From: Mayamaea pseudoterrestris
Lineage: Eukaryota; Bacillariophyta; Bacillariophyceae; Sellaphorales; Sellaphoraceae
Length of the DNA stretch: 64,000 bases
Direction of reading: 5' to 3'
NCBI GenBank assembly: GCA_027923505.1
Contig: BROI01000002.1
Coordinates: 2,294,001-2,358,000, forward strand
Part shown: piece by piece, positions 34,010 to 64,000 of the stretch
How the letters are laid out: every line of letters begins with the position of its first letter
How positions within the stretch are numbered: the stretch's first letter is position 1
Notes under the pieces: generated by a model
Databases searched by the model: none
Told to the model about the DNA's origin: nothing
Seen by the model: the letters and a program-made list of their open reading frames with translations, nothing else
Program-made: the position numbers and the translations under genes

Positions 34010-34617
34010 ACAAAAAGCTTTTGGAAGACTAGTAACTAGGCGAACAAAAGACAAGAATGAGAGGCCGTCATGGTCGATGTCGGCCGACGGACCTCCGAGC
34101 CCCAACCCTAACTGACTGCCAACTACTCTGGCGATGCCTCCGCCTGATGGGCCGCGGCATGTTCTCAGAACGGTCTCCTCTTGCGCATCCGTTCTAAGCC
34201 GGACAATCAGAAGCCTACGACTGCTGATTGCCCTCGGTCGCTCGAATGCTACTTTTCCGCACAATGGCTACTTTAGCTAGATGGACAACAAGTCCTAGAT
34301 GGTCTTGGTTTGTGGTTTGGGCCCGGAAAATCCGGGTTCCAAAGCAGAAAGCACGTCAGCTATGACGACTCAACCCACACGAACCAGCTAGCTGAAGGAG
34401 GAACAGCCACACAGAAAAGGCGTGTGGCGAGAACCGCGGAAAAGAAACAAAGAGCAAGAAAAAGGAACGACGGAAGAGGACTCTCCAGTGTGTCGTTCGG
34501 GAAGGCATGTTGTGTATGGTGTACAAATGCGTGAGGAGCGCATGGGCGAGGACCGAGGTCTTTTGCCTGGATGCAAAACGCGGGTGTACGCACAAATGGT
34601 AGCCTGTAACAGATGAA

Positions 34618-35880
34618 TTAGGTTTTAATTGCGCCAGCAATTGTATTCTTTGTCAATTCGTTGATTTTGATGCTGCATTCACGTAGATAATGTTTTACGG
34701 AAGGTGGAGACCAACGTAGCCGATAGGCAATCTCGTCCTCCGACATGTTTGCATTAGCCAGGGCCACTGCTGCGGTGACACGATTGGAATGGGCCACAAT
34801 GCGTGTTATATTCTGGCGCAGGAAATGGGCCGGGTCAGGATATGCACCCTCAACGGCCTTTCGCATGATTTTAATAATGTCGCCGCTTGTTAGGTATGTG
34901 TAGTCTCCTCGCGCGGAGGTGCAGTAGACACCAAGTGGCTCGCGTTCCTTTTTGCAATGGAGGATACGTGCTCGTTGGATAATGGAAATCGCGGCCTTGA
35001 TTGGGCACAGGAACGGGTGACCTGAGCGCCGGAATTTCCGAATACTGAAATTCGTTTGGCTTTTGTCAAAACGAAAACGGATGTGAAGTTCATCGGCAGT
35101 TTGGCCTTTTGCAGCCAGGTCGCTGTGGGATAGTTCGTGACTGTCGGATGTGTAAAATGTAAAGTCCAGATCAGTAAAAGCCAGCGGCTGGTTGGCCCAC
35201 TCGGCAGCATGGTGCGAAGCAGGGACGCGGCTGAATTGGCCTCGACGGGCTGTTGTTTGAGCATATTCGTTGGCGCGTGAGCCTGTGAACGCGCCGAGGC
35301 GAGTCCAGTCAAATACTGTAGCTGTGAGATCCAGGATTGCCCGCTTGTCTCGAGAAGCGGAGGTGCGAACAGTGTTGTAGAGGTATTGGAACATGTGAAA
35401 CGTGTATGGTTCACGTTTTTCCTTTGGTTGCTGCCATTTACGGCGGTTGTCGAGAATTTCAGAGAGGAGCGGGTGGATTCCTGTTGATTTTGCAGGATCC
35501 ACAATGGAGAAGCGCTTATTGATGAGCAGTTGAATTGCGGCGTGGGCTGCGTTCATGTATCCCGAAACAGTTTTGACCATAGGAGTTCGCATGGCCGTTG
35601 ATTTTGACGAGAGCCTGAGTGATTTTCGATCAGCCTCGAGAGTCCTGCCAGAAGCGACTCGTTCCATGTATGCTGCAATTAACGGGATCGCTTGCCCCGG
35701 TGTGAGCGTTTTGAAAGACTTGTCTGTGAAGTTGAGCTCAAGGCACCATTTGACAAAATGCTTGGCGCGACTATCAAACGCTTTATCATGTTGGGAGCGA
35801 ATGTCGCCTCTGTTGCGGTTCCGTCGATCACTGAGGAGATTGTTGACAACAGACTGCGCGGCACTAGGTAAATTTTGCAT
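34618..35880 (-). CDS. DIRS-type tyrosine recombinase
   Basis: Inserts the circular DNA copy by site-specific recombination. The frame is open up to 36096, but the upstream part lies over the end of the RT gene and looks non-coding. ATG 35880 (MQNLPSAAQSVVNN) gives 420 residues. A core-binding helical region (SRAKHFVKWCLELNF..GQAIPLIAAYMERVASG) precedes the catalytic domain. It has Arg I in GAFTGSRANEYAQ, a candidate Lys near RFRFDKSQTNF, H-x-x-R in VAHSNRVTAAVALA, Trp in RLRWSPPSV in place of the second His, and nucleophile Tyr in VKHYLREC. All expected catalytic positions are filled. Starts within the RT frame, an overlap of about 200 bp, as usual for DIRS elements. Confidence 0.88.
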   Translation of the reverse strand: MQNLPSAAQSVVNNLLSDRRNRNRGDIRSQHDKAFDSRAKHFVKWCLELNFTDKSFKTLTPGQAIPLIAAYMERVASGRTLEADRKSLRLSSKSTAMRTPMVKTVSGYMNAAHAAIQLLINKRFSIVDPAKSTGIHPLLSEILDNRRKWQQPKEKREPYTFHMFQYLYNTVRTSASRDKRAILDLTATVFDWTRLGAFTGSRANEYAQTTARRGQFSRVPASHHAAEWANQPLAFTDLDFTFYTSDSHELSHSDLAAKGQTADELHIRFRFDKSQTNFSIRKFRRSGHPFLCPIKAAISIIQRARILHCKKEREPLGVYCTSARGDYTYLTSGDIIKIMRKAVEGAYPDPAHFLRQNITRIVAHSNRVTAAVALANANMSEDEIAYRLRWSPPSVKHYLRECSIKINELTKNTIAGAIKT

Positions 35881-38570
35881 GCTTGGAGCTTCGGCGGCGC
35901 CTGCGTCATAACGGATTCCCACGAGTTCGTCGAATGTGTGAAGCGAGAAAGGAGATCCGCGCCAATGTTTTCCTTCCCTGGAATGTGATTTCCCTGGATA
36001 CGAAAGGTAAGAGAATTGTAAGTGCAAATAGCGCAGAGAAAACGTGCAAGCCGACGCAGTTCTGGGCAAGTTGTACGGGCGGCGTGAGTCATCCATGACA
36101 AAGCCGAGGTATTGTCTGTGAGAACATTTAGGACATGTTCTTGAGTCGCAAGGGCAGGGTCATGTACCAAGGTGCCAATAGTCAATGTAATGTTGATTAT
36201 GATGCCCACAAATTCCAGTATGTTGATATGCCACACATTAGTGTTCAGGTGTTGTCGACGTTTGCTTGGGTCACGCATCTGAAAACCGCAACTTAGTAAG
36301 TCGGTTGCATACAGGCGCCATTTAAATTTTAATTCCGTGTTCCAAGCACCAATACCTTTCATGCTGGCGTCACTGTGAGAATGATTTGTTGGCGTGCGGT
36401 CAATGAGCAGCCCCATATGTCGTCGCCAGACGTGTGACCATTGCTTGTTGTTTAGTGTGGAGCGAAGGAAACGGAGGTCGGCAAGGGTGTCCTGTGTTAG
36501 ATGCAGGCGACCCTGTTTCCACCAGCGCTTAGTCTGATGGCGGCCTTGTGACATACGTGTTGCGTCTGTGAGATTTTGTTGGAGTCGAATAGACATGTAA
36601 GCTCCAAACTGCGCGACGTAACAGCCGTGACGGAGCAAACCCAATGGTTCAGCAAGGAGATTGGGAGCAATGAACATATATTGCGGTGGCTGTGTGCTGA
36701 CGGCCGCTGAGAGTTGGTCGATCATGACTGCCAATTTTTCTTGTTTATCAGTGGGCCATGCCAGTTGCAGCTTGCGTGTATCCCAATCGAAACCAATGTA
36801 ACGCAAGTGGAATGTGACGGAGACTTTCCATTTGCGTGGGTTTATACAAGGCGTCCGGAACTCAGGGTTCGGCTGGCCGAAGACAAGCTGAGCGGCCACT
36901 ACGCTGTTGCGAATTGCTGCAAGGATAGTGGCGGCTGTGCCTGGAACTGCTTGATCATCCACAAAACTGGCTGGCGCAAAGCGTCTGTCTGGGCCCAAGA
37001 GATCTGTCATTCCTGTGTTATATTTGTCGCGAACAGCGGGAGTGAAGGTTTGGCAGATGTCGGCGGTGGGGGCAGCCGACAAGACAATGGAATCGGATAG
37101 TTCTGTGCGCGTATCGCCAACGTCGAGAACAGAAGCTATTAACCCGCGAAGTTCTGCGAGTATCATGTAAAAGGACGGCGCGTTGCGAGCACCAAAGATC
37201 ATGCCCACTGGAATGACCAAATACTGGCAAAGAACTGATGCAAAGGCTGGGCCAATATCCGGATGGTACTTTACCCAACGGAACGCAGCGGAAATGTCGT
37301 CGGCTGCAAAATAAATTTCTTCTGTCGGGTGGTCCAAGCGCATGTTGTAAATGGCCTTTAGAAGGCGGCGAAGGACTGTGCCATAGTAGACTGCTGGATT
37401 TTCATTATAGCGACCCGGTTCGCCAGCGGGCGGTATCTGCTCATTTACATTTCCACAATCAGTTGGCGACAATGTTGTTGATGGATCACAAACCAGTCGT
37501 CCTTCATCACCTAGCCGGCCGGGTTTAGGTGGAATGTATGAGATGAGTGACAAGAAAAGTCCAGGAATGAAGCGCCACAAGAAGCGTGGAAACATAATGT
37601 GGTATGAGTGTTTCTCCTCCTTGCGAAATTTTTCCATGACTGTGTCCATGACGCTGTCGAGTCGCCGATTGTTCTCCAAGTTTCGTGCGATGACATCGGC
37701 GAATGTGCCGCGATAAACTCCATGTAATGGTGCTCCATGGTGGATGAGATGAAGGACAGCGTCACAATTGACGGGTGGCTCGCTGGATGGAAGTCGGGTG
37801 TGGCGGACTTTGGCAATGACATCGCTGAGCAGATTCCAATCGCGACCTTGGTTTGTATATTCGCCTCCAAGCCAGCGGAGAAAATCGCCATAATTGAAAT
37901 TGAAACGCAGAAGAGCTGCCCCCATATCCATGGCGCGAGAGTCCGACAATGGTGACATGTCGTCGCCTGGGAAGCGACGTGGCTCGCGAAGATAATGCAG
38001 TGAATGGTTGGAGGCTCGCCGGCGTAGGTATGCGTACTCCATTAACGTGAAATGCGACTGTAAAATCTCCTTGCGAATTTGCAGAGAGAAATAGTCCCAG
38101 CAGAGATGTAGAATGAAGTAGCCGGACTTATCGTGATGGAAAGTACCAATTTTCGGTGTGGCTCGGCCCCATCCATGGAGGCGCCGATGGTACACACGGT
38201 CATCCATTGGTAGGAGACCACACGATCCGTACAGAGGATCAAGGAATGTACATCCAGCGATGCGCAGTGCATTTGCATCGTTGAGACAGAGGAATGGCCA
38301 AACGCTTGCCATGATTGTGCCAAGAACATGTTCCCATGATTTGCTTGAGAATTGATGAAACGATGTGGGGATGACACCATTAGGCGGTGGAGGCAGTGGA
38401 CGTCGCCAGCCGATTGGAAGTGTCGGAATTGTGTCGCGTAGCGGTGGATAATTATTTACTGAAGAGTGTGTGACGTCGAACGGCGAGACAAGTGCTGTAG
38501 CAACTGTGGTTAACGGGGCAGTATTATATAAGTCGGAGACTGCAGAGCGTGTCGACATCCAGCGCGTCAT
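35679..38570 (-). CDS. DIRS-type reverse transcriptase / RNase H
   Basis: 963 residues from ATG 38570. Fingers and palm: YFAADDISAAFRWVKYHPD, VIPVGMIFGARNAPSFYMI, and the catalytic box FVDD (about 535-538). Thumb/connection: RKWKVSVTFHLRYIGFDWDTRKL. RNase H follows: SDASMKGIGAWN, then INILEFVGIII and LTDNTSALSWM, carrying the D..E..D pattern, and ends GNHIPGKENIGADLLSRF. There is no protease or DDE integrase. The first 250 residues are unassigned, with Trp/Tyr-rich segments. The gene lies 66 bp after gag and overlaps the recombinase gene in another frame. Confidence 0.9.
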   Translation of the reverse strand: MTRWMSTRSAVSDLYNTAPLTTVATALVSPFDVTHSSVNNYPPLRDTIPTLPIGWRRPLPPPPNGVIPTSFHQFSSKSWEHVLGTIMASVWPFLCLNDANALRIAGCTFLDPLYGSCGLLPMDDRVYHRRLHGWGRATPKIGTFHHDKSGYFILHLCWDYFSLQIRKEILQSHFTLMEYAYLRRRASNHSLHYLREPRRFPGDDMSPLSDSRAMDMGAALLRFNFNYGDFLRWLGGEYTNQGRDWNLLSDVIAKVRHTRLPSSEPPVNCDAVLHLIHHGAPLHGVYRGTFADVIARNLENNRRLDSVMDTVMEKFRKEEKHSYHIMFPRFLWRFIPGLFLSLISYIPPKPGRLGDEGRLVCDPSTTLSPTDCGNVNEQIPPAGEPGRYNENPAVYYGTVLRRLLKAIYNMRLDHPTEEIYFAADDISAAFRWVKYHPDIGPAFASVLCQYLVIPVGMIFGARNAPSFYMILAELRGLIASVLDVGDTRTELSDSIVLSAAPTADICQTFTPAVRDKYNTGMTDLLGPDRRFAPASFVDDQAVPGTAATILAAIRNSVVAAQLVFGQPNPEFRTPCINPRKWKVSVTFHLRYIGFDWDTRKLQLAWPTDKQEKLAVMIDQLSAAVSTQPPQYMFIAPNLLAEPLGLLRHGCYVAQFGAYMSIRLQQNLTDATRMSQGRHQTKRWWKQGRLHLTQDTLADLRFLRSTLNNKQWSHVWRRHMGLLIDRTPTNHSHSDASMKGIGAWNTELKFKWRLYATDLLSCGFQMRDPSKRRQHLNTNVWHINILEFVGIIINITLTIGTLVHDPALATQEHVLNVLTDNTSALSWMTHAARTTCPELRRLARFLCAICTYNSLTFRIQGNHIPGKENIGADLLSRFTHSTNSWESVMTQAPPKLQACKIYLVPRSLLSTISSVIDGTATEATFAPNMIKRLIVAPSILSNGALSSTSQTSLSKRSHRGKRSR

Positions 38571-38636
38571 GATATCTGATTCAATTAATTCTTGCTCGTT
38601 CCATTTATCCGCGTCGGCCGTCCGGAGTGGCGCTTG

Positions 38637-41198
38637 TCAGGCCATGAGATCGAGGAAAGCTTGTGTTTTTCTGAACTTGCCGGCGACGCGGTTATCGTCG
38701 ATAAATGTGCTCAATTGACGAAGAGTATCCGCCGTGTAACGGGAATTTGGAATGTCAATGTGCGCGCGACGACAACTTTGGTTTGAGCAACCTGCATGAT
38801 CTCGAAGAATGTATGGAATACAAATGTGGACGCCATCGACCTTTGGAATGATAATGCCTGCCCGACTCCAGTCACTTATCAGATGATTGACATTGTAATC
38901 GCCTCCATTTACACCGTTTTCCCAAGCGAGGAGCGCGCGTGCTGCATTACGAACGCGACCATTATACGTACCAGTTTGCGACGTGGAGCGTGACGAGTTG
39001 CCGCGTGGTGGGCGTTCAGCCGAATTATGGTCAGGGCGCGAGGCGCTGCGTTCGAATGATCTATCAGCCGTGGCTGTCGAGGCGAAGCGTGTGTTTGTGT
39101 CGGGTGCGTGATGGCGAGTTGTAGGGGGCGCTGCGTTTGTGGACGGTTGGAAATGTACACTTGTGAATCGACCATCGCGACGTAGGCTACTTGAAGCTGC
39201 ATCATTTGTGTGATTACGTCGAGACGAGATGGGGAGAACATCCGGCGGTACTGGTTTGTTGAAAGGTCCTTTGGTTGGTAACGCAACTGCGCGCAGAATG
39301 TCGGCCGAGAAGACGTCGTCGGCAGTGGTGCGCCACTTTTCCAGCCGCGTTTGCAGCTGGATGTGGCCTTGGACGCGAATGGTGGGGCGGAGGATTAAAA
39401 CATCTGATCGTTCTGGTGAATCATGGACGTGAGCCTCAATGCAGTGAGCTGCTGGGTTGTCGGTTTCAGGCCAGTCTGACATTATTTCAATTAACTGGCA
39501 AATGTGAAGAATGACGGCCGCTGTTGCCGCCAGGCGCTTTGATCCAAGAGCATCCCAGACCGTACCAAATTCATGGACGTCAAATCGTTTGAATAAATAA
39601 AGGGAATTACCCGCCAATGGTGAAGCGAGTGACCACGGCGAGCAGCCAGGGTGGATTTTGTCGAGCCGTTCATACCGATCGGGCATATGGAACATTTCTT
39701 GAAAGAACCACATGAGATTCTTCCAAAATTTGAACATGTTAAGACTAGTGAAGCCATTCTCTGGTAAGCGTATGCCAGTTGACTGAATCGTCGAGACAAA
39801 ATGCCATGGGGTTAGCGCGACAGGGAGAAGGTGCGCTTGGAATTTTAGGCCGGGCTCGAATGCCGCTGATTGAATTGCCTGGATATATTCATTGCGCTCA
39901 AACAAGTCAAAACAGTCGATGGCCGGGCAACTGTATAAGGTGTACTTATGAGCATTGATCGCGGATCTGTAGGCGCTGTGAAGCATTGCGGTGACGTTGG
40001 CTGGCTTGGCAAGGGTGATGGCAGTCGACTTTTCCTTTTCCGAACTTTTGATTCCGTAGACCTGGCTTGCGAATTTTGAGCTAATGTAACCTGGCACCAG
40101 GCGATGATTTGGTGGATAGACAATGTCTGGAGACGGGCCAATGTCGAAAGCTAGGCCGCAATGGTGAGCTCCTAGGAAAGCGAGGCGAGCATGATGAATC
40201 GTCATGATACCGTTTACATAATTGTCTCTTGCGAAGATGTATGGGTGTGGCTGGAATTTTTTAGCTGATGGGAGAAGGAACATTGGATATTTCTTGCAAC
40301 TGGAATTGAAAATGTCGACCAAGCGGCTTTCGGGTTGCTCGCATGGGAGCATGTACTCAGAGGGAGATGTAACTGCTGCGACTGCTGTACCAAAATCTGG
40401 AAGCTGATAAATTTTTCGTGAGGTGCGTGGAACTTGGTAACATTCAATAGTTGTTCCAATTGAGATGTCGTCGCGACGGGAGCGTGAGGAGACGGTATCG
40501 GTCTCGTGATCGGACGAATGGCGCCGTTTCTTGGGAGGTTCTTCGAATGGATCTTGGCGGACATGCGCAGGAGAAGAAACTGTTTTGAACTGGTCGCCGA
40601 ACAGGTTGTTAAGAATTGCACTCGCGTCCACTGGAGCGGTTGCTTTGTCTTTCGACTGCGGACTTTTGGAACCCGCATGTTCATCCTTGGAGAAAATATG
40701 TAGAGAGTCCGGAACATTGTCGCGCTGGCCTGGCAACTGGAGGACTTTAAACGCTTCAAGAAATGATGGCATGCCGCTCTTGAGGAACGGAATGTGAAAT
40801 TTGCTGCGCCATCCTGCGGTCTTTGGGTCGCACAACGCGAAAATGACGGGGCAATCCAGGGAATGATGGCGGTGATAATCGGATAAAAGCGGAGTGCCGT
40901 TTACCGCCTGGAGTGAGAGTGACAGAAAGTGCTGCAGCTTCTCCGTCCATGCCTTCTTATCCGAACCAAAAGAATTGGAAACATGATCCATGACTGTCTT
41001 GGCGCGAATGGTGATCTCCGAATAAAGAAAAGTACGTTCGGCCGAGTCGTCGTCTTGCGCCGCGAGCTCGAGAAAAGTTTCTTTTACATCAAACAGGAAA
41101 AAGGACTCGATGGCCATCTTAAGTGGCTCCATGTTGCAGGCGCGGAGCCACACTGGTAAAGTTGGAATTGAGTCGAGCCAGTCGTACGTGTCGACGTT
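38637..41198 (-). CDS. DIRS-type Gag-like protein, 5' truncated
   Basis: About 853 residues remain. The N-terminus is cut by the copia LTR at 41198/41199. The frame continues 21 codons into the LTR, but there is no ATG in that part (it opens at a TTG). The first ATG of the gag itself is about 20 codons inside. The central part is unassigned. The C-terminal quarter is basic and Ser/Arg-rich, followed by a probable CCCH-type zinc finger (C.PYILRDHAGCSNQSCRRAH). Position upstream of RT and the zinc finger identify it as the Gag-equivalent that packages the RNA. Family assignment is by context. Confidence 0.75.
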   Translation of the reverse strand, partial: NVDTYDWLDSIPTLPVWLRACNMEPLKMAIESFFLFDVKETFLELAAQDDDSAERTFLYSEITIRAKTVMDHVSNSFGSDKKAWTEKLQHFLSLSLQAVNGTPLLSDYHRHHSLDCPVIFALCDPKTAGWRSKFHIPFLKSGMPSFLEAFKVLQLPGQRDNVPDSLHIFSKDEHAGSKSPQSKDKATAPVDASAILNNLFGDQFKTVSSPAHVRQDPFEEPPKKRRHSSDHETDTVSSRSRRDDISIGTTIECYQVPRTSRKIYQLPDFGTAVAAVTSPSEYMLPCEQPESRLVDIFNSSCKKYPMFLLPSAKKFQPHPYIFARDNYVNGIMTIHHARLAFLGAHHCGLAFDIGPSPDIVYPPNHRLVPGYISSKFASQVYGIKSSEKEKSTAITLAKPANVTAMLHSAYRSAINAHKYTLYSCPAIDCFDLFERNEYIQAIQSAAFEPGLKFQAHLLPVALTPWHFVSTIQSTGIRLPENGFTSLNMFKFWKNLMWFFQEMFHMPDRYERLDKIHPGCSPWSLASPLAGNSLYLFKRFDVHEFGTVWDALGSKRLAATAAVILHICQLIEIMSDWPETDNPAAHCIEAHVHDSPERSDVLILRPTIRVQGHIQLQTRLEKWRTTADDVFSADILRAVALPTKGPFNKPVPPDVLPISSRRNHTNDAASSSLRRDGRFTSVHFQPSTNAAPPTTRHHAPDTNTRFASTATADRSFERSASRPDHNSAERPPRGNSSRSTSQTGTYNGRVRNAARALLAWENGVNGGDYNVNHLISDWSRAGIIIPKVDGVHICIPYILRDHAGCSNQSCRRAHIDIPNSRYTADTLRQLSTFIDDNRVAGKFRKTQAFLDLMA

Positions 41199-41510
41199 TG
41201 TAACTTGTAAATCAAATCGTTGCACCTTTCGCTTGTAGCTGTCCTTGGATGGCCAATCCAAGCTTGCAGTTGCTACAATACGAGAGACGAATAAATCGCT
41301 TTCTTAACTCTTCAAGCTTAGTAAGTCTGCTTGTTTCTACTCTATATCGCACTAGTTTCAGCAATATACTCGTTGAATCGCTTCGAAGCCGTCGCTGCCA
41401 CGCATCACGCGATCGTGAGGCTGTGGTGAGCCGCGAGTGCCGCTGTGTCACCCTATCGGACATTCGGTGTGACTTGCCCGATTTTCGCTGTTTTTCGTTC
41501 GCATCCTGCA
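41199..41510 (-). repeat. LTR A (3' LTR of element A)
   Basis: 312 bp, TGTAAC..CCTGCA, TG..CA termini. It differs from LTRs C, D and E at a few sites, for example one extra T in a T-run near the end. Inside it, CTTGGAT and ATCCAAG (on the minus strand) flank TGGCC and form a 7-bp hairpin. AAGTATATTG and GATATAGAG are the TATA-like spots on the minus strand. Confidence 0.92.
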
Positions 41511-41522
41511 ACTCCCCTCAAG
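41511..41522 (-). promoter_or_regulatory. Polypurine tract of element A
   Basis: On the minus strand CTTGAGGGGAGT directly precedes the 3' LTR. This purine-rich primer site for plus-strand synthesis is repeated at 49981, 53835 and 60420 next to LTRs B, C and E. Confidence 0.8.
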
Positions 41523-41528
41523 TCATAC

Positions 41529-47000: not shown

Positions 47001-47099
47001 CCCCCCTTGGCGTTCCGCCGTCGCGAATGGTGCTCCATCTCGATCAATTCGTGGCGATTCTACTCGAGTTCGTCGAATAACTCCTTGAACTGGGGATCT
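44063..47099 (-). pseudogene. Element A: decayed integrase, protease and gag region
   Basis: The integrase is readable in 44551-44063 (LLSDNAKSETG, TTEPGHPEQNPCERHTSH). From about 44560 upstream, alignment with copy CD needs many one- to few-base deletions, so protease and gag are scattered over short frames. Similarity ends at 47099. No functional product is expected. Confidence 0.8.
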
Positions 47100-47892: not shown

Positions 47893-47902
47893 TGTTTCAG
47901 CC

Positions 47903-49980: not shown

Positions 49981-49998
49981 ACTCCCCTCAAGTCATAC

Positions 49999-53523: not shown

Positions 53524-53834
53524 TGTAACTTGTAAATCAAATCGTTGCACCTTTCGCTTGTAGCTGTCCTTGGATGGCCAATCCAAGCTTGCAGTTGCTA
53601 CAATACGAGAGACGAATAAATCGCTTTCTTAACTCTTCAAGCTTAGTAAGTCTGCTTGTTTCTACTCTATATCGCACTAGTTTCAGCAATATACTTGTTG
53701 AATCGCTTCGAAGCCGTCGCTGCCACGCATCACGCGATCGTGAGGCTGTGGTGAGCCGCGAGTGCCGCTGTGTCACCCTATCGGACATTCGGTGTGACTT
53801 GCCCGATTTTCGCTGTTTTCGTTCGCATCCTGCA
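53524..53834 (-). repeat. LTR C (3' LTR of element CD)
   Basis: 311 bp, TG..CA termini, no difference seen from LTR D. PPT complement ACTCCCCTCAAG follows at 53835. Confidence 0.93.
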
Positions 53835-53852
53835 ACTCCCCTCAAGTCATAC

Positions 53853-54779
53853 CTAATAGTTAGATTCCTTGAAGAGCAGGTTCTTTAAGTGCTTGCTTGC
53901 CGTAGCCCGTGGAAGAAACTTGGTAAGTACATCCGCCGGGTTTGTCGTTCCCATGATGTGGTTGAAATTAATAATTCCCGCCGCAATCGCTTCGCGTACA
54001 CGGTGAAATGCCAGTGCATTGTGTCGCTTCGTCAGACTAGAGTGCGGTAGGTTGCTGCTTTGCGTTACCGACTTGTTGTCTCCAAACATCCATGAAGGTC
54101 CGTCGAGCGGAACTCCCAACATGCGTAGCGTGAAGCGAAGATCCATGATCTGCTCCGTGCTCACTCTCGCTGCTACAAACTCCGAGCCGTACGTCGCCGT
54201 CTCGACCGTCGCTTGGCGTTTCGAAAACCAATCAACGACTGTTCCATTCAACATGTGTAGCATGCCCATCGCTGCCCGTCCCGTCGTGTAATCGTGGTAC
54301 AGGTTCGCATCTTCGAACGTTGACATTCGCACCGCCTTGCCGCGCGGCGTGGGCATGTTCCACGGAAGCTCTTCGCAGATCTTGCCGTACACACTGTAAT
54401 CCCAATCCATCTTGTCAACTGTCGCGTATCGCTCGTCCGTTGGAATCGAAACGTTGAATCGAATCGCTCCATCCGGGTATCTTCGTAAGTATCCGCAAAT
54501 ATGCTTCAACCGTTCCAAGTGCCCCGCTCGTGGCGCAGCTCGGAATCTCCCCATAGTCATGACAGCACAGTGAATGTCGAATCGACATAAACTTACTGCC
54601 CATTGCAACGCACCAATTATCGATTGATACTTCGCAATTCCGTCGTCGTCAAGTTCTTTCGTTTCGTCGAGTTCCGGATGATCGCCGTCGCGTAGTGGAC
54701 TTGTCTGCGGTCGCGGTTCCTCGCCGAACATTTCTTTGTAGTTCGCTAGTAGTCTTGTGACGTACTTCTTCGCTCCTAA
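53853..54779 (-). CDS. Element CD: last part of pol (end of RT, RNase H) after the premature stop
   Basis: 309 codons in the same frame as gag-pol, separated from it by one TGA (54782-54780). First ATG at 54731 (MFGEEPRPQ). RNase H motifs are complete (DYTTGRAAMGMLH, ATYGSEFVAARV, DNKSVTQSS, PADVLTKFLPRA). Would only be made by readthrough of the TGA. Confidence 0.85.
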   Translation of the reverse strand, partial: LGAKKYVTRLLANYKEMFGEEPRPQTSPLRDGDHPELDETKELDDDGIAKYQSIIGALQWAVSLCRFDIHCAVMTMGRFRAAPRAGHLERLKHICGYLRRYPDGAIRFNVSIPTDERYATVDKMDWDYSVYGKICEELPWNMPTPRGKAVRMSTFEDANLYHDYTTGRAAMGMLHMLNGTVVDWFSKRQATVETATYGSEFVAARVSTEQIMDLRFTLRMLGVPLDGPSWMFGDNKSVTQSSNLPHSSLTKRHNALAFHRVREAIAAGIINFNHIMGTTNPADVLTKFLPRATASKHLKNLLFKESNY

Positions 54780-57700
54780 TCAGAGTACGCCGTCGTCGTC
54801 TCGCCAAACGTCTGCGCCCAAATGATATGCCAATGGACCGACGCCCTTCAACTTGTAGTTGTAGTTCTCAATTAAAAGATCCGTTAGTTCCTTCGGATTC
54901 TTCATCGCTATCGCTAAATCGTCGACATACACACAAACGTATTCGTAGTGCGTGCCTTTATCGCGCATCCACACGTCCGGTTCTGCGATACACGGCGTGA
55001 AGCCAATGTCGCGGAGCGTGTCTGCAAAGTGCTCGTGCCAGCGTGCGCCTGACGTGCGAAGACCGTATAGTGCCTTCACGATCGTGAGCGTGTGACCCTC
55101 GAGCTCCCCGAACTCCGGACCTGCCACGATATAAACCTTCTCTTTCGTTTTCGCTTCCAAGTATGCGTTGCCGACGTCAGCTGCCCACAGTTCCAGACCG
55201 TTGAGTTCCGCTAACATCGCTACCATTCGTAGACTTCGCAATGACACAACGCCCGAGTAAACTGAATCCTTCGGCGGCTCTGTCATATGTCCTCCTGCAA
55301 CGAGTCGTGCTTTCCGTCGCAAATCGTGCTTGACATCGAATATCATGTGCACGTTTATTCGTTTCCACGGCGCCGGCATAACCTTACCGACTCCTTGATC
55401 TGCGAACGTGTCGTAATCATTTATCTGATTTAATTCCGTTCGAATCGCATCCGTCCACAGCGTGTTGCCGTTGATCTCGTCGAGAGCTTTCGCATCTTTA
55501 TAATTGCGCGGCAACCTTACGCCGAATTTGTAGCGTACGCCGTTTGCTTTCGATTTTCGTTTCGCCGCTGTTACCATCTGTCGAAACTTCTTTCGCTTCC
55601 GAGTGTAATGCTCCAGCTGCTTCCATCCTGGCTTGTCGAGTAAGCCGTGCTTGAGTCCATACTCTGCGATCGTTATCGGATCGTCCTTCTTCATGATCGC
55701 GAGAGGCTCCCACGTCGTCGTTCCGTCAGTCCATTCGACGAGAACGTTACTTGAACTTCCTTTGTATGTCGGATCGTTCGGTTTCAAATTAAGCTCGTGT
55801 CCGATTACCTTCGTGAATACCCACTGAGTCGCCGGATCGTTTCGTATATCTTCGTCCATCTGTCGTTCGATTAAATCCGACAGTTCGTTGTAACTTATTA
55901 AGTCTTTCGCTGGCTCCTCTCCCATTTGGATTAGGAAACCTTTCGTCGTTTCGAGTAGCTCGTTATCGCGTACTTCGATATATTCGCATACAGTCGCTCG
56001 CATTTTCTGACCGTTTTCGTGTTCCCTTACGAACGTGCGTCCGATGAGTTCGCTTGGAGAGAACAGAGGGCATTTATTCCCTGATTCTTGCTCAGCCCTT
56101 CTGAAGAACTTCGCTGGTACGTTGGCGTGGTTCGCCATCGGAATTGTTTCGTCGTCGTTTCCTTCGTAGTTGTCGTGACTACTTTCTGTCGCATGCGTGC
56201 TATGGTAGCGTCCTGTCGCGAGATCTGGAGTTTCAAAATTTCGCTCGCTTGCGCGTGTAGCTTCTTCAGAAATCTCCCCTCCAGACTCAGGGAAGGAAGG
56301 CAACTCTCGTGGTAACAAGTAGCTGCGCGAGACCACGTTGGAGCGCGGAATCGCCTGAAGCGTGTCGTCCGTCAGAACGAGAAAAGTCATGTGCGGACCG
56401 CTATTCTCTGCGATGCCCACGAATCGGCCGTTGCCAGATCGTACCGCCGAGGGAAAACTCCCCTGCGCCTCAAACGTGACCGGTTCCCACCACTTGAAAT
56501 GTAACAAAGGCGAAATATCCGGCAGATTTCCGAACGCAACTTCCGTTGGCGTGCGCCATCCCAGCGATTTCGTCGCGAGGACGTTCAGTATCATGATTAC
56601 GAATTTAATCAGCAAAACCCAGCAATGGCCTGGCGAACCCGAATCTCGTTGGAGGTTCTCCATCATTGGCTTAATGTGCGACGTGTGACGTTCGCATGGA
56701 TTTTGTTCTGGATGACCCGGTTCTGTGGTCACTTGAGGAATATTGTACATCCGACAGAGATCGCTCACAGCCTTGCCAGTCTCCGACTTGGCATTGTCGC
56801 TGAGCAGTCCGTTAGGAGCGCCCACTTCGCGGATAAAATCCTCTAACGCGTTTGACATTTCGCTCTCCGACTTCATCGGGTAGCCGCGCGTGTAAAAACT
56901 TTCTCGTCCAACAAAGAGCTGCATCTTAGTAGCTCCCCCATGCCCTAGAATTCCATCATCCAAAGCTGGCGTGTCAGAGTGTATCGTGTCCGTGGCGAAT
57001 AGTTCGCGCAACCGCTGAACGTTCGCGGCCGGAAATCGTGATTTCGTGAGGTGTCGAAATGGTAATCGCGGGTGTGCGCTGAGATGATACCATGCTTCCG
57101 TGTGACGTAAAGTCTGTTGAACGCGCTCAGTCGGGACCCATCCGAGGTACGGCCGAAGAGCATTATAGTCCGGTTCCTTGCTTCTTAGCTTCCGCAAATT
57201 AACGCGTGAAAACTGAGCGTGTCGCACGCACCGATTGATCAGTACGTCAAGTTCGTCGCCAGTGCGTGTCGGCGTGTGACGATTGCGGTGCGTGATACCG
57301 TCATCGTCGAATCGTTCGTCGAAAGATCCATAATCGTGATCTCGTTCGTCGAAATCGTCGTGCGCGTGCTCGACATCGTAAACAGTCGGGTCCCACGGCA
57401 CGTCCGACGTCATGATGACAGTCGGATACTTATCCAAATCATCGAACGTGGGTTTCGTCACGTCCAAGTACACCAGGCCGTCGCGAATCGCCAATGGCAA
57501 AACGTAGCCTCCAATGTTCGTCGTAATTCGTTGCGTTCCGCCAAACATGGTCGGAATATCGTCGACGCGATGTCCCATTGCGCGCAATTGATTCGGGCAA
57601 TGAATCGTCGGTCCGTCTCGCTTTAAAGCATACTGGTGACACAGAAGCAGAATGGTTTCGCCACTAAGGGTCTTTGCCAGTCCAGCTGCAGTGCCAATCT

Positions 57701-59645
57701 TGAGAGCTGGGACAATATGATCGTCAATACCAGTCACATCCACCTCGGCGTTCGTTTCCGAAACGACGAGCATGTCTCCTCCGCATAAGCCTCCGTTCGC
57801 GCCGCTGTCGATGAGCGCGCCTTCGTTGATCCGCTCGTAGTGTGCGCGATTGACGCGCATACGACGATGCATGTTGAAGCTGAATGTACCTCGTCCGGTG
57901 TTATCAGTCGTCAACGATCCTGTCACTTGCTGAGTTGTAGTACTCGCATTGTTCGCTTGCAGAACCGATCGTGCAGCCGTTTGGACTGACATTCCACTAT
58001 TGCCGGGCTGAATATTAATCGTGCCAGGAACGCTTGCGTGATCGTTCGCTACAGATTCCGTCGCGTGACGCTCTTGATGCGCCGCGTTGACTTGCGTCTG
58101 CGTCGTAGCCGTGCCTCGTTGGTTGCGCGGTCGCCATCCGTTTTCGGGTGTCTTGGGCGCCGTCGCACGCTTGTCCTTCAACTGCTTTCGCTGATCAAAC
58201 TTCATCTCCAACCAGACTTCATCCTTCACGCTCGCGTGAGGTTTCTTCATGATCGCTGCGAATCGTTCCGCCGATAAGCCGCTTGGAGTCGCGCCGCCAT
58301 TGCCGCCGCCGCCTCCTTTCGTTCCACTAGACTGCGCTTGATTGATTGTGCGCTTAGTCTTCGTCGTCGATGGATGTTTCTTGTCATACTTGATGCAGCA
58401 CTCTTCTAAGTGCGCGTACAACTGCGCGAAATTGTCTTCCGAGTCGTGTTGCCCCATGTGTTTCTTGATGGCAATCATTCCGTCAAAACCTGCTAGTGAT
58501 GCGCTGAATCCAGTGTGCTCGGAGAAAGCGTCGCGTAGCATGTCGTATCGTTGTAAACCTGTCAGAGCTTCTGCGTCCATTTCGAGCAGCCAGATGACTT
58601 TCTTGTAGAACAGTGCGAGAAATTCGATCGTCGGCCGTGACCACTTCTCGGTCAGCCGCATTCCCTGCAGTTCCGTTCGCGCGCGTTCCTTCTCGATGTG
58701 AGCAGTAGCGCCTTCTTCGTATCGCGTTCGCAATCGTTGGTAGACTTCGCGTCCGTCCATCGTCTTCTTGAACTGCTGTACTGCGAGTGATGCAGACGGA
58801 GTTCGACAGTGCGTGAGAAAGATCCTGTATACAAACACATTCTTCTTTGCATACGCCTTCTGTTCTTTCGGTCCCTTTTCCTTCGGGTCATAATCGTCGT
58901 CAAAGACTTCGTGGAAGTCATGCAATGTAGCGATGACTTTCAACTCGGAAATCCACTGTTTCCACGAGGAATCCAGCTTCATTTCTTTACAATCCCTCGC
59001 CGAGAACTTGATAGACTTCGTAAATTGGTCTGAATACTTCTCGTCGTCTTCGTCGTCGCCGAGGTCCAGTACGGATGTCGGTGACTGCTTCGTGTCCACG
59101 TCCACGCTCGTCGGTGGCACCTTGTCGGCCGAGTCGGGCTTCGACTCGTCGCCTTCGTTCGTTAGCGTGGAGTCCTTGGATTCGTCCTTCTTGGATTCCG
59201 TTTCGCTTTCCTTCGCTGGAGGTTTCGCTCCGCTTCCGCTGCCCACGCTCGCAATGTTGCGCGCTTGGACTCGTTCCTTCGCTCGTGCTGTGACGAACGT
59301 CGCCAGCGTTTCGGTGGTCAGTTGCGACCATGTCTTGATGTCCGGCGACTCTTGCGCCAAATACCATTCGATCGCGTTCGTGATCGTGCGTTGTTTCATC
59401 TTCGTTAGCGAGTGTTCGCTCGTTTCCTGCGTGACATTGTCGCCATCGTCAGTCGTCGTCGTTGTCGTCGTCGTGACGTTCCACTTCGTCGCGAAATCGT
59501 CGTACTCCATCTCGATCAATTGCGTAAGCGATTCTACTCCGAGTTCGTCGAATAACTCCTTGAACTGAGGATCTTGGAAAACGCCTACGTTCTCTTCGTA
59601 AACATGCGCAAACGCCGCGTCTTTCTGCGCGCGAGTTTCCGCCAT
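54780..59645 (-). CDS. Element CD: Gag-Pol polyprotein, ended by a premature stop in RT
   Basis: 1621 residues from ATG 59645 (MAETRAQKDAAF); the frame is open a little further from a TTG. The gag part lacks any C-x2-C-x4-H-x4-C knuckle but has a Gly-rich segment and acidic and basic linkers. Protease: ALIDSGANGGLCG. Integrase: TDTIHSDTP, LLSDNAKSETG, TEPGHPEQNPCERH, the D-D-E set. RT: LWAADVGNAYLEA, YVDDLAIAM. The frame stops at DDDGVL where copies A and B continue with Cys-Phe. The change TGC TTC to TGA TTA is two C-to-A changes. Otherwise this is the only complete gag-pol frame of the family in the window. Confidence 0.9.
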   Translation of the reverse strand: MAETRAQKDAAFAHVYEENVGVFQDPQFKELFDELGVESLTQLIEMEYDDFATKWNVTTTTTTTTDDGDNVTQETSEHSLTKMKQRTITNAIEWYLAQESPDIKTWSQLTTETLATFVTARAKERVQARNIASVGSGSGAKPPAKESETESKKDESKDSTLTNEGDESKPDSADKVPPTSVDVDTKQSPTSVLDLGDDEDDEKYSDQFTKSIKFSARDCKEMKLDSSWKQWISELKVIATLHDFHEVFDDDYDPKEKGPKEQKAYAKKNVFVYRIFLTHCRTPSASLAVQQFKKTMDGREVYQRLRTRYEEGATAHIEKERARTELQGMRLTEKWSRPTIEFLALFYKKVIWLLEMDAEALTGLQRYDMLRDAFSEHTGFSASLAGFDGMIAIKKHMGQHDSEDNFAQLYAHLEECCIKYDKKHPSTTKTKRTINQAQSSGTKGGGGGNGGATPSGLSAERFAAIMKKPHASVKDEVWLEMKFDQRKQLKDKRATAPKTPENGWRPRNQRGTATTQTQVNAAHQERHATESVANDHASVPGTINIQPGNSGMSVQTAARSVLQANNASTTTQQVTGSLTTDNTGRGTFSFNMHRRMRVNRAHYERINEGALIDSGANGGLCGGDMLVVSETNAEVDVTGIDDHIVPALKIGTAAGLAKTLSGETILLLCHQYALKRDGPTIHCPNQLRAMGHRVDDIPTMFGGTQRITTNIGGYVLPLAIRDGLVYLDVTKPTFDDLDKYPTVIMTSDVPWDPTVYDVEHAHDDFDERDHDYGSFDERFDDDGITHRNRHTPTRTGDELDVLINRCVRHAQFSRVNLRKLRSKEPDYNALRPYLGWVPTERVQQTLRHTEAWYHLSAHPRLPFRHLTKSRFPAANVQRLRELFATDTIHSDTPALDDGILGHGGATKMQLFVGRESFYTRGYPMKSESEMSNALEDFIREVGAPNGLLSDNAKSETGKAVSDLCRMYNIPQVTTEPGHPEQNPCERHTSHIKPMMENLQRDSGSPGHCWVLLIKFVIMILNVLATKSLGWRTPTEVAFGNLPDISPLLHFKWWEPVTFEAQGSFPSAVRSGNGRFVGIAENSGPHMTFLVLTDDTLQAIPRSNVVSRSYLLPRELPSFPESGGEISEEATRASERNFETPDLATGRYHSTHATESSHDNYEGNDDETIPMANHANVPAKFFRRAEQESGNKCPLFSPSELIGRTFVREHENGQKMRATVCEYIEVRDNELLETTKGFLIQMGEEPAKDLISYNELSDLIERQMDEDIRNDPATQWVFTKVIGHELNLKPNDPTYKGSSSNVLVEWTDGTTTWEPLAIMKKDDPITIAEYGLKHGLLDKPGWKQLEHYTRKRKKFRQMVTAAKRKSKANGVRYKFGVRLPRNYKDAKALDEINGNTLWTDAIRTELNQINDYDTFADQGVGKVMPAPWKRINVHMIFDVKHDLRRKARLVAGGHMTEPPKDSVYSGVVSLRSLRMVAMLAELNGLELWAADVGNAYLEAKTKEKVYIVAGPEFGELEGHTLTIVKALYGLRTSGARWHEHFADTLRDIGFTPCIAEPDVWMRDKGTHYEYVCVYVDDLAIAMKNPKELTDLLIENYNYKLKGVGPLAYHLGADVWRDDDGVL

Positions 59646-59795
59646 CGTTGTCGTCGTGACAATGTTCTTGCTATCACCTGCGGAACTTTCCGGGCCAAGA
59701 ACCAACGTGCGTCCACGTTACTTCGTAAATCAATAGTACTCTTCGTCGATAAAGTCTCTATGCCGAGGCAATGAGTCTCAAGACAGTGTTAATCT
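59646..59795 (-). promoter_or_regulatory. Leader of element CD with candidate primer-binding site
   Basis: 150 bp between 5' LTR D and the gag ATG. On the minus strand AGATTAACACTGTCTTGAG begins right after the LTR (59795-59777), matching the block after the F LTR apart from five inserted bases. The tRNA is not identified. Confidence 0.45.
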
Positions 59796-60106
59796 TGTAA
59801 CTTGTAAATCAAATCGTTGCACCTTTCGCTTGTAGCTGTCCTTGGATGGCCAATCCAAGCTTGCAGTTGCTACAATACGAGAGACGAATAAATCGCTTTC
59901 TTAACTCTTCAAGCTTAGTAAGTCTGCTTGTTTCTACTCTATATCGCACTAGTTTCAGCAATATACTTGTTGAATCGCTTCGAAGCCGTCGCTGCCACGC
60001 ATCACGCGATCGTGAGGCTGTGGTGAGCCGCGAGTGCCGCTGTGTCACCCTATCGGACATTCGGTGTGACTTGCCCGATTTTCGCTGTTTTCGTTCGCAT
60101 CCTGCA
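59796..60106 (-). repeat. LTR D (5' LTR of element CD)
   Basis: 311 bp, TG..CA, no difference seen from LTR C or E. On its left (plus coordinates) lies leader sequence, not a PPT, which makes it the 5' LTR. Confidence 0.93.
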
Positions 60107-60108
60107 AT
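60107..60108. other. Two-base LTR-LTR junction
   Basis: Only AT separates LTR D from LTR E. On the minus strand the order is LTR E end (TTACA), A, T, LTR D start (TGCAGG). The A equals the base after the 5' LTR in CD (59795). The T equals the base before every 3' LTR of this family. Confidence 0.8.
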
Positions 60109-60419
60109 TGTAACTTGTAAATCAAATCGTTGCACCTTTCGCTTGTAGCTGTCCTTGGATGGCCAATCCAAGCTTGCAGTTGCTACAATACGAGAGACGA
60201 ATAAATCGCTTTCTTAACTCTTCAAGCTTAGTAAGTCTGCTTGTTTCTACTCTATATCGCACTAGTTTCAGCAATATACTTGTTGAATCGCTTCGAAGCC
60301 GTCGCTGCCACGCATCACGCGATCGTGAGGCTGTGGTGAGCCGCGAGTGCCGCTGTGTCACCCTATCGGACATTCGGTGTGACTTGCCCGATTTTCGCTG
60401 TTTTCGTTCGCATCCTGCA
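60109..60419 (-). repeat. LTR E (3' LTR of element E)
   Basis: 311 bp, TG..CA, no difference seen from C and D. The PPT complement ACTCCCCTCAAG follows at 60420. Confidence 0.93.
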
Positions 60420-60437
60420 ACTCCCCTCAAGTCATAC

Positions 60438-61364
60438 CTAATAGTTAGATTCCTTGAAGAGCAGGTTCTTTAAGTGCTTGCTTGCCGTAGCCCGTGGAAG
60501 AAACTTGGTAAGTACATCCGCCGGGTTTGTCGTTCCCATGATGTGGTTGAAATTAATAATTCCCGCCGCAATCGCTTCGCGTACACGGTGAAATGCCAGT
60601 GCATTGTGTCGCTTCGTCAGACTAGAGTGCGGTAGGTTGCTGCTTTGCGTTACCGACTTGTTGTCTCCAAACATCCATGAAGGTCCGTCGAGCGGAACTC
60701 CCAACATGCGTAGCGTGAAGCGAAGATCCATGATCTGCTCCGTGCTCACTCTCGCTGCTACAAACTCCGAGCCGTACGTCGCCGTCTCGACCGTCGCTTG
60801 GCGTTTCGAAAACCAATCAACGACTGTTCCATTCAACATGTGTAGCATGCCCATCGCTGCCCGTCCCGTCGTGTAATCGTGGTACAGGTTCGCATCTTCG
60901 AACGTTGACATTCGCACCGCCTTGCCGCGCGGCGTGGGCATGTTCCACGGAAGCTCTTCGCAGATCTTGCCGTACACACTGTAATCCCAATCCATCTTGT
61001 CAACTGTCGCGTATCGCTCGTCCGTTGGAATCGAAACGTTGAATCGAATCGCTCCATCCGGGTATCTTCGTAAGTATCCGCAAATATGCTTCAACCGTTC
61101 CAAGTGCCCCGCTCGTGGCGCAGCTCGGAATCTCCCCATAGTCATGACAGCACAGTGAATGTCGAATCGACATAAACTTACTGCCCATTGCAACGCACCA
61201 ATTATCGATTGATACTTCGCAATTCCGTCGTCGTCAAGTTCTTTCGTTTCGTCGAGTTCCGGATGATCGCCGTCGCGTAGTGGACTTGTCTGCGGTCGCG
61301 GTTCCTCGCCGAACATTTCTTTGTAGTTCGCTAGTAGTCTTGTGACGTACTTCTTCGCTCCTAA
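60438..61364 (-). CDS. Element E: end of RT and RNase H after the premature stop
   Basis: 309 codons in frame behind a TGA at 61367-61365, the same position and change as in CD. First ATG 61316. RNase H motifs are as in CD. Confidence 0.83.
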   Translation of the reverse strand, partial: LGAKKYVTRLLANYKEMFGEEPRPQTSPLRDGDHPELDETKELDDDGIAKYQSIIGALQWAVSLCRFDIHCAVMTMGRFRAAPRAGHLERLKHICGYLRRYPDGAIRFNVSIPTDERYATVDKMDWDYSVYGKICEELPWNMPTPRGKAVRMSTFEDANLYHDYTTGRAAMGMLHMLNGTVVDWFSKRQATVETATYGSEFVAARVSTEQIMDLRFTLRMLGVPLDGPSWMFGDNKSVTQSSNLPHSSLTKRHNALAFHRVREAIAAGIINFNHIMGTTNPADVLTKFLPRATASKHLKNLLFKESNY

Positions 61365-63005
61365 TCAGAGTACGCCGTCGTCGTCTCGCCAAACGTCTGC
61401 GCCCAAATGATATGCCAATGGACCGACGCCCTTCAACTTGTAGTTGTAGTTCTCAATTAAAAGATCCGTTAGTTCCTTCGGATTCTTCATCGCTATCGCT
61501 AAATCGTCGACATACACACAAACGTATTCGTAGTGCGTGCCTTTATCGCGCATCCACACGTCCGGTTCTGCGATACACGGCGTGAAGCCAATGTCGCGGA
61601 GCGTGTCTGCAAAGTGCTCGTGCCAGCGTGCGCCTGACGTGCGAAGACCGTATAGTGCCTTCACGATCGTGAGCGTGTGACCCTCGAGCTCCCCGAACTC
61701 CGGACCTGCCACGATATAAACCTTCTCTTTCGTTTTCGCTTCCAAGTATGCGTTGCCGACGTCAGCTGCCCACAGTTCCAGACCGTTGAGTTCCGCTAAC
61801 ATCGCTACCATTCGTAGACTTCGCAATGACACAACGCCCGAGTAAACTGAATCCTTCGGCGGCTCTGTCATATGTCCTCCTGCAACGAGTCGTGCTTTCC
61901 GTCGCAAATCGTGCTTGACATCGAATATCATGTGCACGTTTATTCGTTTCCACGGCGCCGGCATAACCTTACCGACTCCTTGATCTGCGAACGTGTCGTA
62001 ATCATTTATCTGATTTAATTCCGTTCGAATCGCATCCGTCCACAGCGTGTTGCCGTTGATCTCGTCGAGAGCTTTCGCATCTTTATAATTGCGCGGCAAC
62101 CTTACGCCGAATTTGTAGCGTACGCCGTTTGCTTTCGATTTTCGTTTCGCCGCTGTTACCATCTGTCGAAACTTCTTTCGCTTCCGAGTGTAATGCTCCA
62201 GCTGCTTCCATCCTGGCTTGTCGAGTAAGCCGTGCTTGAGTCCATACTCTGCGATCGTTATCGGATCGTCCTTCTTCATGATCGCGAGAGGCTCCCACGT
62301 CGTCGTTCCGTCAGTCCATTCGACGAGAACGTTACTTGAACTTCCTTTGTATGTCGGATCGTTCGGTTTCAAATTAAGCTCGTGTCCGATTACCTTCGTG
62401 AATACCCACTGAGTCGCCGGATCGTTTCGTATATCTTCGTCCATCTGTCGTTCGATTAAATCCGACAGTTCGTTGTAACTTATTAAGTCTTTCGCTGGCT
62501 CCTCTCCCATTTGGATTAGGAAACCTTTCGTCGTTTCGAGTAGCTCGTTATCGCGTACTTCGATATATTCGCATACAGTCGCTCGCATTTTCTGACCGTT
62601 TTCGTGTTCCCTTACGAACGTGCGTCCGATGAGTTCGCTTGGAGAGAACAGAGGGCATTTATTCCCTGATTCTTGCTCAGCCCTTCTGAAGAACTTCGCT
62701 GGTACGTTGGCGTGGTTCGCCATCGGAATTGTTTCGTCGTCGTTTCCTTCGTAGTTGTCGTGACTACTTTCTGTCGCATGCGTGCTATGGTAGCGTCCTG
62801 TCGCGAGATCTGGAGTTTCAAAATTTCGCTCGCTTGCGCGTGTAGCTTCTTCAGAAATCTCCCCTCCAGACTCAGGGAAGGAAGGCAACTCTCGTGGTAA
62901 CAAGTAGCTGCGCGAGACCACGTTGGAGCGCGGAATCGCCTGAAGCGTGTCGTCCGTCAGAACGAGAAAAGTCATGTGCGGACCGCTATTCTCTGCGATG
63001 CCCAC
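61365..63005 (-). CDS. Element E: RT part of pol between frameshift and stop
   Basis: 546 codons, opening behind the frameshift at an A3 run (63039-63041; A4 in CD) and ending at the shared TGA. Contains the chromo-like SNVLVEWTDGTTTWEPL segment and RT through YVDDLAIAM. The ATG at 63005 is simply the first in frame, not a natural start. Confidence 0.83.
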   Translation of the reverse strand: MGIAENSGPHMTFLVLTDDTLQAIPRSNVVSRSYLLPRELPSFPESGGEISEEATRASERNFETPDLATGRYHSTHATESSHDNYEGNDDETIPMANHANVPAKFFRRAEQESGNKCPLFSPSELIGRTFVREHENGQKMRATVCEYIEVRDNELLETTKGFLIQMGEEPAKDLISYNELSDLIERQMDEDIRNDPATQWVFTKVIGHELNLKPNDPTYKGSSSNVLVEWTDGTTTWEPLAIMKKDDPITIAEYGLKHGLLDKPGWKQLEHYTRKRKKFRQMVTAAKRKSKANGVRYKFGVRLPRNYKDAKALDEINGNTLWTDAIRTELNQINDYDTFADQGVGKVMPAPWKRINVHMIFDVKHDLRRKARLVAGGHMTEPPKDSVYSGVVSLRSLRMVAMLAELNGLELWAADVGNAYLEAKTKEKVYIVAGPEFGELEGHTLTIVKALYGLRTSGARWHEHFADTLRDIGFTPCIAEPDVWMRDKGTHYEYVCVYVDDLAIAMKNPKELTDLLIENYNYKLKGVGPLAYHLGADVWRDDDGVL

Positions 63006-63997
63006 GAATCGGCCGTTGCCAGATCGTACCGCCGAGGGAAACTCCCCTGCGCCTCAAACGTGACCGGTTCCCACCACTTGAAATGTAACAAAGGCGAAAT
63101 ATCCGGCAGATTTCCGAACGCAACTTCCGTTGGCGTGCGCCATCCCAGCGATTTCGTCGCGAGGACGTTCAGTATCATGATTACGAATTTAATCAGCAAA
63201 ACCCAGCAATGGCCTGGCGAACCCGAATCTCGTTGGAGGTTCTCCATCATTGGCTTAATGTGCGACGTGTGACGTTCGCATGGATTTTGTTCTGGATGAC
63301 CCGGTTCTGTGGTCACTTGAGGAATATTGTACATCCGACAGAGATCACTCACAGCCTTGCCAGTCTCCGACTTGGCATTGTCGCTGAGCAGTCCGTTAGG
63401 AGCGCCCACTTCGCGGATAAAATCCTCTAACGCGTTTGACATTTCGCTCTCCGACTTCATCGGGTAGCCGCGCGTGTAAAAACTTTCTCGTCCAACAAAG
63501 AGCTGCATCTTAGTAGCTCCCCCATGCCCTAGAATTCCATCATCCAAAGCTGGCGTGTCAGAGTGTATCGTGTCCGTGGCGAATAGTTCGCGCAACCGCT
63601 GAACGTTCGCGGCCGGAAATCGTGATTTCGTGAGGTGTCGAAATGGTAATCGCGGGTGTGCGCTGAGATGATACCATGCTTCCGTGTGACGTAAAGTCTG
63701 TTGAACGCGCTCAGTCGGGACCCATCCGAGGTACGGCCGAAGAGCATTATAGTCCGGTTCCTTGCTTCTTAGCTTCCGCAAATTAACGCGTGAAAACTGA
63801 GCGTGTCGCACGCACCGATTGATCAGTACGTCAAGTTCGTCGCCAGTGCGTGTCGGCGTGTGACGATTGCGGTGCGTGATACCGTCATCGTCGAATCGTT
63901 CGTCGAAAGATCCATAATCGTGATCTCGTTCGTCGAAATCGTCGTGCGCGTGCTCGACATCGTAAACAGTCGGGTCCCACGGCACGTCCGACGTCAT
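62972..63997 (-). CDS. Element E: integrase part of pol (partial)
   Basis: 341 codons open to the window edge. Integrase zinc-binding and catalytic parts: HLSAHPRLPFRHL, TDTIHSDTP, LLSDNAKSETG, TEPGHPEQNPCERH. After FEAQGSFP the frame shifts because of the missing A and ends 28 codons later. Continues upstream beyond the window. Confidence 0.85.
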   Translation of the reverse strand: MTSDVPWDPTVYDVEHAHDDFDERDHDYGSFDERFDDDGITHRNRHTPTRTGDELDVLINRCVRHAQFSRVNLRKLRSKEPDYNALRPYLGWVPTERVQQTLRHTEAWYHLSAHPRLPFRHLTKSRFPAANVQRLRELFATDTIHSDTPALDDGILGHGGATKMQLFVGRESFYTRGYPMKSESEMSNALEDFIREVGAPNGLLSDNAKSETGKAVSDLCRMYNIPQVTTEPGHPEQNPCERHTSHIKPMMENLQRDSGSPGHCWVLLIKFVIMILNVLATKSLGWRTPTEVAFGNLPDISPLLHFKWWEPVTFEAQGSFPRRYDLATADSWASQRIAVRT

Positions 63998-64000
63998 GAT

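Follow-up and report, generated by a model that had tools for sequence, protein, structure and literature searches.

A probable rearrangement breakpoint within a retroelement cluster of the diatom Mayamaea pseudoterrestris

Results

A DIRS-like element probably interrupted by a copia element

The window, i.e. the whole stretch of 64,000 nucleotides under study, corresponds to positions 2294001-2358000 of contig C2 in an assembly of 30.6 Mb and 41 contigs. One protein encoded in the window is 97% identical to MPSEU_000204000 of M. pseudoterrestris. Positions are given in window coordinates, with the prefix W where these are extended rightward along the contig, and all joints described here are known from assembled contigs alone. 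Host DNA precedes the retroelements; its segment W24519-33232 has copies of 93-94% identity on C20 (246320-249664) and C11 (527387-532772), which meet near W27840. Further left, a tandem repeat with a 24-bp period (14684-15115) lies inside a frame of coding length.

The cluster starts with the left (3') part of a minus-strand, DIRS-like element of the tyrosine-recombinase type (33501-41197), as judged by its repeats, its open reading frames, the homologues of two of these frames and a copy on C27. The repeated sequence at 33501-34376 is probably terminal, given the order of the repeats in a relative on C5. With regard to the candidate recombinase frame, the Phage_integrase profile matched 4 of 18 homologues at E-values of 0.1 or below (best 0.011), and the window's own protein gave 0.098. 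The residues R295, K366, H457, R460 and Y491 are conserved among the homologues and fit what we take to be the catalytic pattern of tyrosine recombinases; a search of solved structures with this candidate gave no match. The candidate frame for reverse transcriptase (RT) and RNase H has an FVDD motif in its consensus, and the RVT_1 profile matched one of 16 homologues (E-value 0.014) and not the window's own protein. No meaningful match to a solved structure was obtained for this frame either.

After the bases ACGT the DIRS-like element appears to be cut by element A (41198-47101, minus strand), a copia-family copy with an RVT_2 match that consists of a 3' LTR (41198-41511) and pol and is broken in gag, at a point equivalent to position 6054 of element CD (see below). 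The original prediction held that A cuts the DIRS gag, and on the left side this stands: A and the DIRS-like element meet at 41198, a point across which the C27 relative, 94% identical, runs without interruption. On the far side, none of 41 outer right flanks read from the copia family starts with ACGT, and the right half of A was not found. In a fragment on C5, DIRS-like sequence resumes 76 bases past the point equivalent to 41198, near another copia-family copy and with 94 other bases between the two; this fragment may be the lost end of the interrupted element.

Elements F and B form a nest that is divided between two contigs

F was thought to cut A at 47100. The sequence TGAGCGG at that point was considered as the start of the F LTR and rejected, because the LTR that F shares with contig C3 begins at 47498, i.e. 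396 bp beyond the end of A. The intervening sequence (47102-47497, no strand assigned), hereafter U, is part of neither F nor A; it is the host flank 5' of F and ends in TGAATG, which also follows the 3' LTR of F on C3. The left half of F (47498-49668, plus strand) holds a 5' LTR of 379 bp (47498-47876) and gag with a zinc knuckle. A whole-genome search with W47102-49668 gave no other copy of U and a single other place, C3:1058203-1058582, that was identical over 380 bases. This is the 3' LTR of F, downstream of a pol frame, and the F LTR was thus located in two places only, one per contig.

Element B (49669-53504, minus strand), whose left half comprises a 3' LTR and a pol that lacks about 410 bp internally, abuts F at 49668/49669, in agreement with the claim that B cuts F after gag. 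The continuation lies on C3, where a B-like gag is followed by a complete LTR ending in CTGCAA and then by GTTATCTGATTG and the pol of F. The right half of B (gag and 5' LTR) accordingly occupies C3:1051601-1053597 and that of F C3:1053598-1058582. A target duplication of 4 bp, GTTA, is found at the ends of B on both contigs. When GTTA is taken once, the F frame from W47771 remains open across the join for the 1666 residues examined, and it stops at residue 633 or 682 when the join is shifted by one or two bases. Moreover, the two F LTRs are identical (379/379), those of B differ at 1 of 313 positions, and the duplication of F itself, TGAATG, is a 6-base match that is split between the contigs (...GGAATGAATG on C2 and TGAATGTCG... 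on C3). The gene beyond F on C3 encodes a GH20 hexosaminidase. The open frame, the identical LTRs and the split TGAATG fully support, at the level of sequence, that B in F is a true nest which is now divided between C2 and C3. The original prediction of GTTAT followed by F pol and a 3' LTR was therefore right as to content and wrong as to place, which is C3:1051601-1058582 and not the DNA right of the window. The two halves of B leave a gap between element positions 4284 and 4529, and 244 bases of B are thus missing.

The join between B and CD also departs from simple nesting. B's own sequence stops at 53504 and CD starts at 53523, with 18 bp of non-B DNA between them (53505-53522, no strand assigned). 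Genome-wide, this filler has an exact match only here, and two further places match it with 2 mismatches. The idea that CD cuts B is thus not borne out, and right of E, where B was expected after ACCAT, there is a different element and no B. Like 41198 and 49669, the break at 53523 falls exactly on an LTR end, which we count as more than chance, as we do the agreement of the C3 half with F in frame, LTR and duplication. The junctions at 53504 and C3:1051600 are both outside sequence common to the two places. Left of the right half of B on C3 there is other repeat material, in which a stretch of about 200 bases shares 78-84% identity with more than 30 places. At the DNA level this material, a putative reciprocal partner of the C2 joint, matched neither W1-123000 nor the examined copies of the copia element G described below; the idea that it is the left half of G found no support, for the same lack of a match.

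A tandem dimer with abutting LTRs

CD (53523-60107, minus strand; LTRs at 53523-53835 and 59795-60107) is a structurally complete copia element, and so is its neighbour E (60108-66691, minus strand), of which the window holds 60108-64000. The view that only left-hand halves are present does not hold, since CD has both LTRs and E is completed at 66691, just outside the window. E was correctly described as joined to CD: the two stand end to end and head to tail, with LTRs that abut exactly (CAA/TTG at 60107/60108). They differ by one mismatch and one gap in 6585 bases, and their four LTRs are all identical. The joint has the features of a two-LTR junction, i.e. complete LTR against complete LTR, no target duplication between them and near-identical units. 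CD differs from a unit on C6 and from 15 other copies at 11-28 positions over about 3908 bases.

The C6 unit belongs to a second dimer, with the same exact LTR abutment and two units that are identical over the 3906 bases compared. This identity is weaker evidence than that of CD and E, because other copies are almost as close: the C6 unit differs from 15 of them by 1-34 mismatches, and the single copies on C8 and C22 are only one mismatch plus gaps away. In another tandem pair of the window's family (C4:226502-239150) the end of one LTR meets base 80 of its neighbour, with a loss of 79 bases. Three further tandem pairs (on C41, on C2 near 2731000 and on C27) were picked from the list of reverse-transcriptase matches and their middles read. 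That on C41, from a second copia family, has two complete LTRs of 376 bp which are 100% identical and abut exactly (C41:61968-62719). In the pair on C2 (C2:2730500-2732000), of the same second family, the LTRs are separated by a 23-nt spacer that consists of 18 nt of the sequence following the 5' LTR and then CATAT; no LTR pair was seen in the 1501 bases read from C27. A matching 4-bp duplication was present in 0 of 2 perfect dimers of the window's family versus 13 of 24 single copies, numbers too few to carry weight.

DNA to the right of the window

If the five elements were stacked within one another, their right-hand halves should lie beyond 64000. We therefore read the same contig 59 kb past the window, to W123000, with six queries: the missing part of B (as in CD), B-right, F-right, the 531 bases missing from A (as in CD), the 5' part of the DIRS-like element (from C27) and the LTR. 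None gave a match at E-values of 1e-3 or below in W66692-123000 or in W1-33500. As a control, all six matched loci from C3 and C5; the control was independent for four of them, B-right and F-right hitting their own source on C3. With 0 of 6 queries matching right of E, the predicted five-layer stack is absent from contig C2 as far as it was read (W66692-123000) and is refuted to that extent.

Directly right of E stands GGACAACGGG. On C1, C24 and C5, other copies of a third copia element (G) run from ...GGACCATT straight into GGACAACGGG, which shows that E adjoins a fragment of G (W66692-68030). The left half of G was not found. From W68049 on the DNA is host-like and has a copy at C21:422415-424739, with 98.7% identity over W68221-70000 and 94.4% over W68049-68222; the C21 copy has about 370 extra bases between these two matches. 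The segment W73001-81000 is without a copy of this kind.

The copia family: target duplications and wear

A, B, CD and E all lie on the minus strand and belong to one copia family, whose LTRs of 313 bp (314 in A) start with TTG and end with CAA. All four show RVT_2 matches with E-values of 4.6e-16 or better and the features of Ty1/copia elements. In element E an rve match lies upstream of the RT (E-value 0.00045, below the curated cut-off), and the one named diatom homologue of these elements is from Ditylum. The family has 104 LTR-start matches genome-wide, of which 100 were listed, and over the part compared most full-length relatives among the matches listed share 98-100% identity with CD.

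From the loci examined, 79 LTR starts and 67 LTR ends were read, and 49 left and 41 right outer flanks were kept after removal of inward-facing ends, LTR-LTR junctions and one chance match. Copies in which one end was absent, mutated or beyond the contig were excluded, and 26 two-ended copies (24 single, 2 dimers) could be scored. The same 4 bases were present on both sides in 13 of them and the other 13 were unmatched, while shuffled flank partners gave a mean of 0.9 matches and a maximum of 6 in 10,000 trials. The family thus integrates with a 4-bp duplication, and by their flanks about half of the scored copies appear to have since lost or exchanged a flank or to have been assembled wrongly, two outcomes that the duplication count alone cannot tell apart. 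C4:1169419-1175834 and C20:60444-67021 share both flanks exactly (30 bases read on each side), indicating that this insertion was duplicated together with its surroundings and that two of the 13 matched copies represent one event. Tandem satellites of about 170 and 181 bp harbour several insertions of the family.

Decay had been taken to fit the order of insertion. This cannot be upheld, as the F LTRs are identical, those of B are nearly so and the wear is patchy; decay as a clock was rejected on the patchiness, the nearly clean LTRs and the small CpG excess. The divergence of A lies mostly at element positions of about 3500-6050 (W44700-47101, the gag side), with few changes at 0-3500. B-right (C3:1051601-1053280) is likewise worn on the gag side, with 136 mismatches in the body versus 2 in the LTR. 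Mismatches in A numbered 54 in 1243 CpG sites and 181 in 4642 other sites. Relative to a background of 0.589, gaps near CG were raised in B (25 of 32 in B-right, 26 of 31 in B-left) and not in A (50 of 82). A poor consensus or motif-linked error was considered as the source of the wear; for the gag side, the candidates are a recombinant donor, localised mutation or a poor consensus.

Discussion

The region is probably best read as a rearrangement breakpoint inside a retroelement cluster, and not as a five-layer nest. At least three broken units appear to be joined end to end, namely the DIRS-like element with A, U and F with B, and the CD-E dimer beside the G fragment. B was inserted into F with a GTTA duplication, and the left halves are now on C2 and the right halves on C3 beside the GH20 gene; at the breaks, material is missing (244 bp of B) and has been added. 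We infer that B suffered a double-strand break on one chromosome and that the broken end was ligated to a break on another, a translocation between the two being the simplest case; repair by end joining would have left the 18-bp filler. The CD-E dimer would either have stood beside the second break already or have been captured there as extrachromosomal cDNA.

This breakpoint reading draws support from the right half of F on C3, which fits by target duplication, frame and LTR identity, from the occurrence of the F LTR in only two places, one on each contig, from the frequent lack of matched flanks in the family (13 of 26) and from the similar split known in Phaeodactylum (see below). The unmatched duplications would be accounted for by mis-assembly no less than by rearrangement, however, and mis-joined contigs are a possibility to be reckoned with, although we regard it as distinctly less probable than its opposite: C2 and C3 would be wrongly connected at or near the cluster, and F and B would be whole on one chromosome in the living genome. 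Assembly is difficult in a region whose family has 104 LTR starts and, among those listed, mostly near-identical full-length relatives; duplications are unmatched in half of the two-ended copies, and one copy (C13:224752-231335) is flanked by the 181-bp satellite on one side and the 170-bp satellite on the other. Against such mis-joins, overlap errors would be expected within an identical element, whereas B is broken in sequence that the two places do not share, with a loss of 244 bp and the addition of an 18-bp filler, and joints of this kind are unlike a repeat-overlap assembly error.

Homologous recombination between copies of the same family, e.g. of CD with E at another locus, could have swapped flanks without any end joining, and the near-identical copies and frequent unmatched duplications speak for it. 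It leaves the non-homologous joins at 47101 and 53504 unexplained, and CD is far closer to E than to the C6 unit and the 15 other copies. Of the expected reciprocals, GGAC ended 0 of 49 outer left flanks and ACCA started 0 of 41 outer right flanks, in a list of ends that is incomplete. Recombination alone is therefore very unlikely. The five-layer nest with right halves beyond 64000 is hardly credible even though the LTR ends at 41198, 49669 and 53523 are exact and B in F is real, since no right half was found up to W123000, the F LTR starts at 47498, 18 bp precede CD and the flank of E is G.

The CD-E dimer deserves separate consideration. Unequal crossing-over leaves one LTR shared between tandem units. 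It does not yield near-identical units whose two LTRs abut, and end-to-end joining of cDNA is, as judged from the anatomy of the joint, the most likely origin of CD-E. A broader and rather doubtful proposal is that copia cDNA was joined outside the chromosome into head-to-tail dimers that were then built into chromosomes, sometimes patching double-strand breaks. If it were true, CD-E, being without a target duplication, would be one such patch at a translocation joint, and the genome would hold a series of them, with perfect junctions in the window and on C6 and C41, a trimmed one (C4) and one with a spacer (C2 near 2731000). A search by title and abstract, with most subscription papers outside its reach, found no description of chromosomal LTR-LTR dimers or of cDNA capture in diatoms. 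The recurrence of such dimers makes the stitching and chromosomal integration of unintegrated cDNA testable.

Tandem LTR-retrotransposon arrays usually share one LTR between neighbours. In CD-E, by contrast, two full LTRs abut, as in a two-LTR circle junction. The head-to-tail order is common to CD-E and to arrays such as Cassandra (PMC7215508). Capture of retrotransposons at double-strand breaks, as outlined for mouse zygotes (PMC4516963), likewise builds retroelement DNA into a repaired break; in contrast, capture is deduced here from anatomy, and what was captured would be an entire dimer.

Our results document at base level, in a second diatom, how the parts of a retroelement nest are distributed over contigs, and they show that a breakpoint can be taken for nesting when a single window is read by itself. 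Should the joins be real, retroelement clusters would be sites of past rearrangement in these chromosomes. The split nest is the same kind of event as already described in diatoms by Maumus et al. 2009 (PMC2806351). In Phaeodactylum tricornutum, the copia element CoDi5.3 is interrupted by another, CoDi2.3, and split, with its halves and target duplication on chromosomes 11 and 31, and apparently intact copies without target duplications are present, as they are here (PMC2806351). The two cases differ in the event that separated the halves: two inserted CoDi2.3 copies recombined with each other in Phaeodactylum (PMC2806351), whereas in the present case it is the inserted element B itself that is broken, with a loss of 244 bp and an 18-bp filler.
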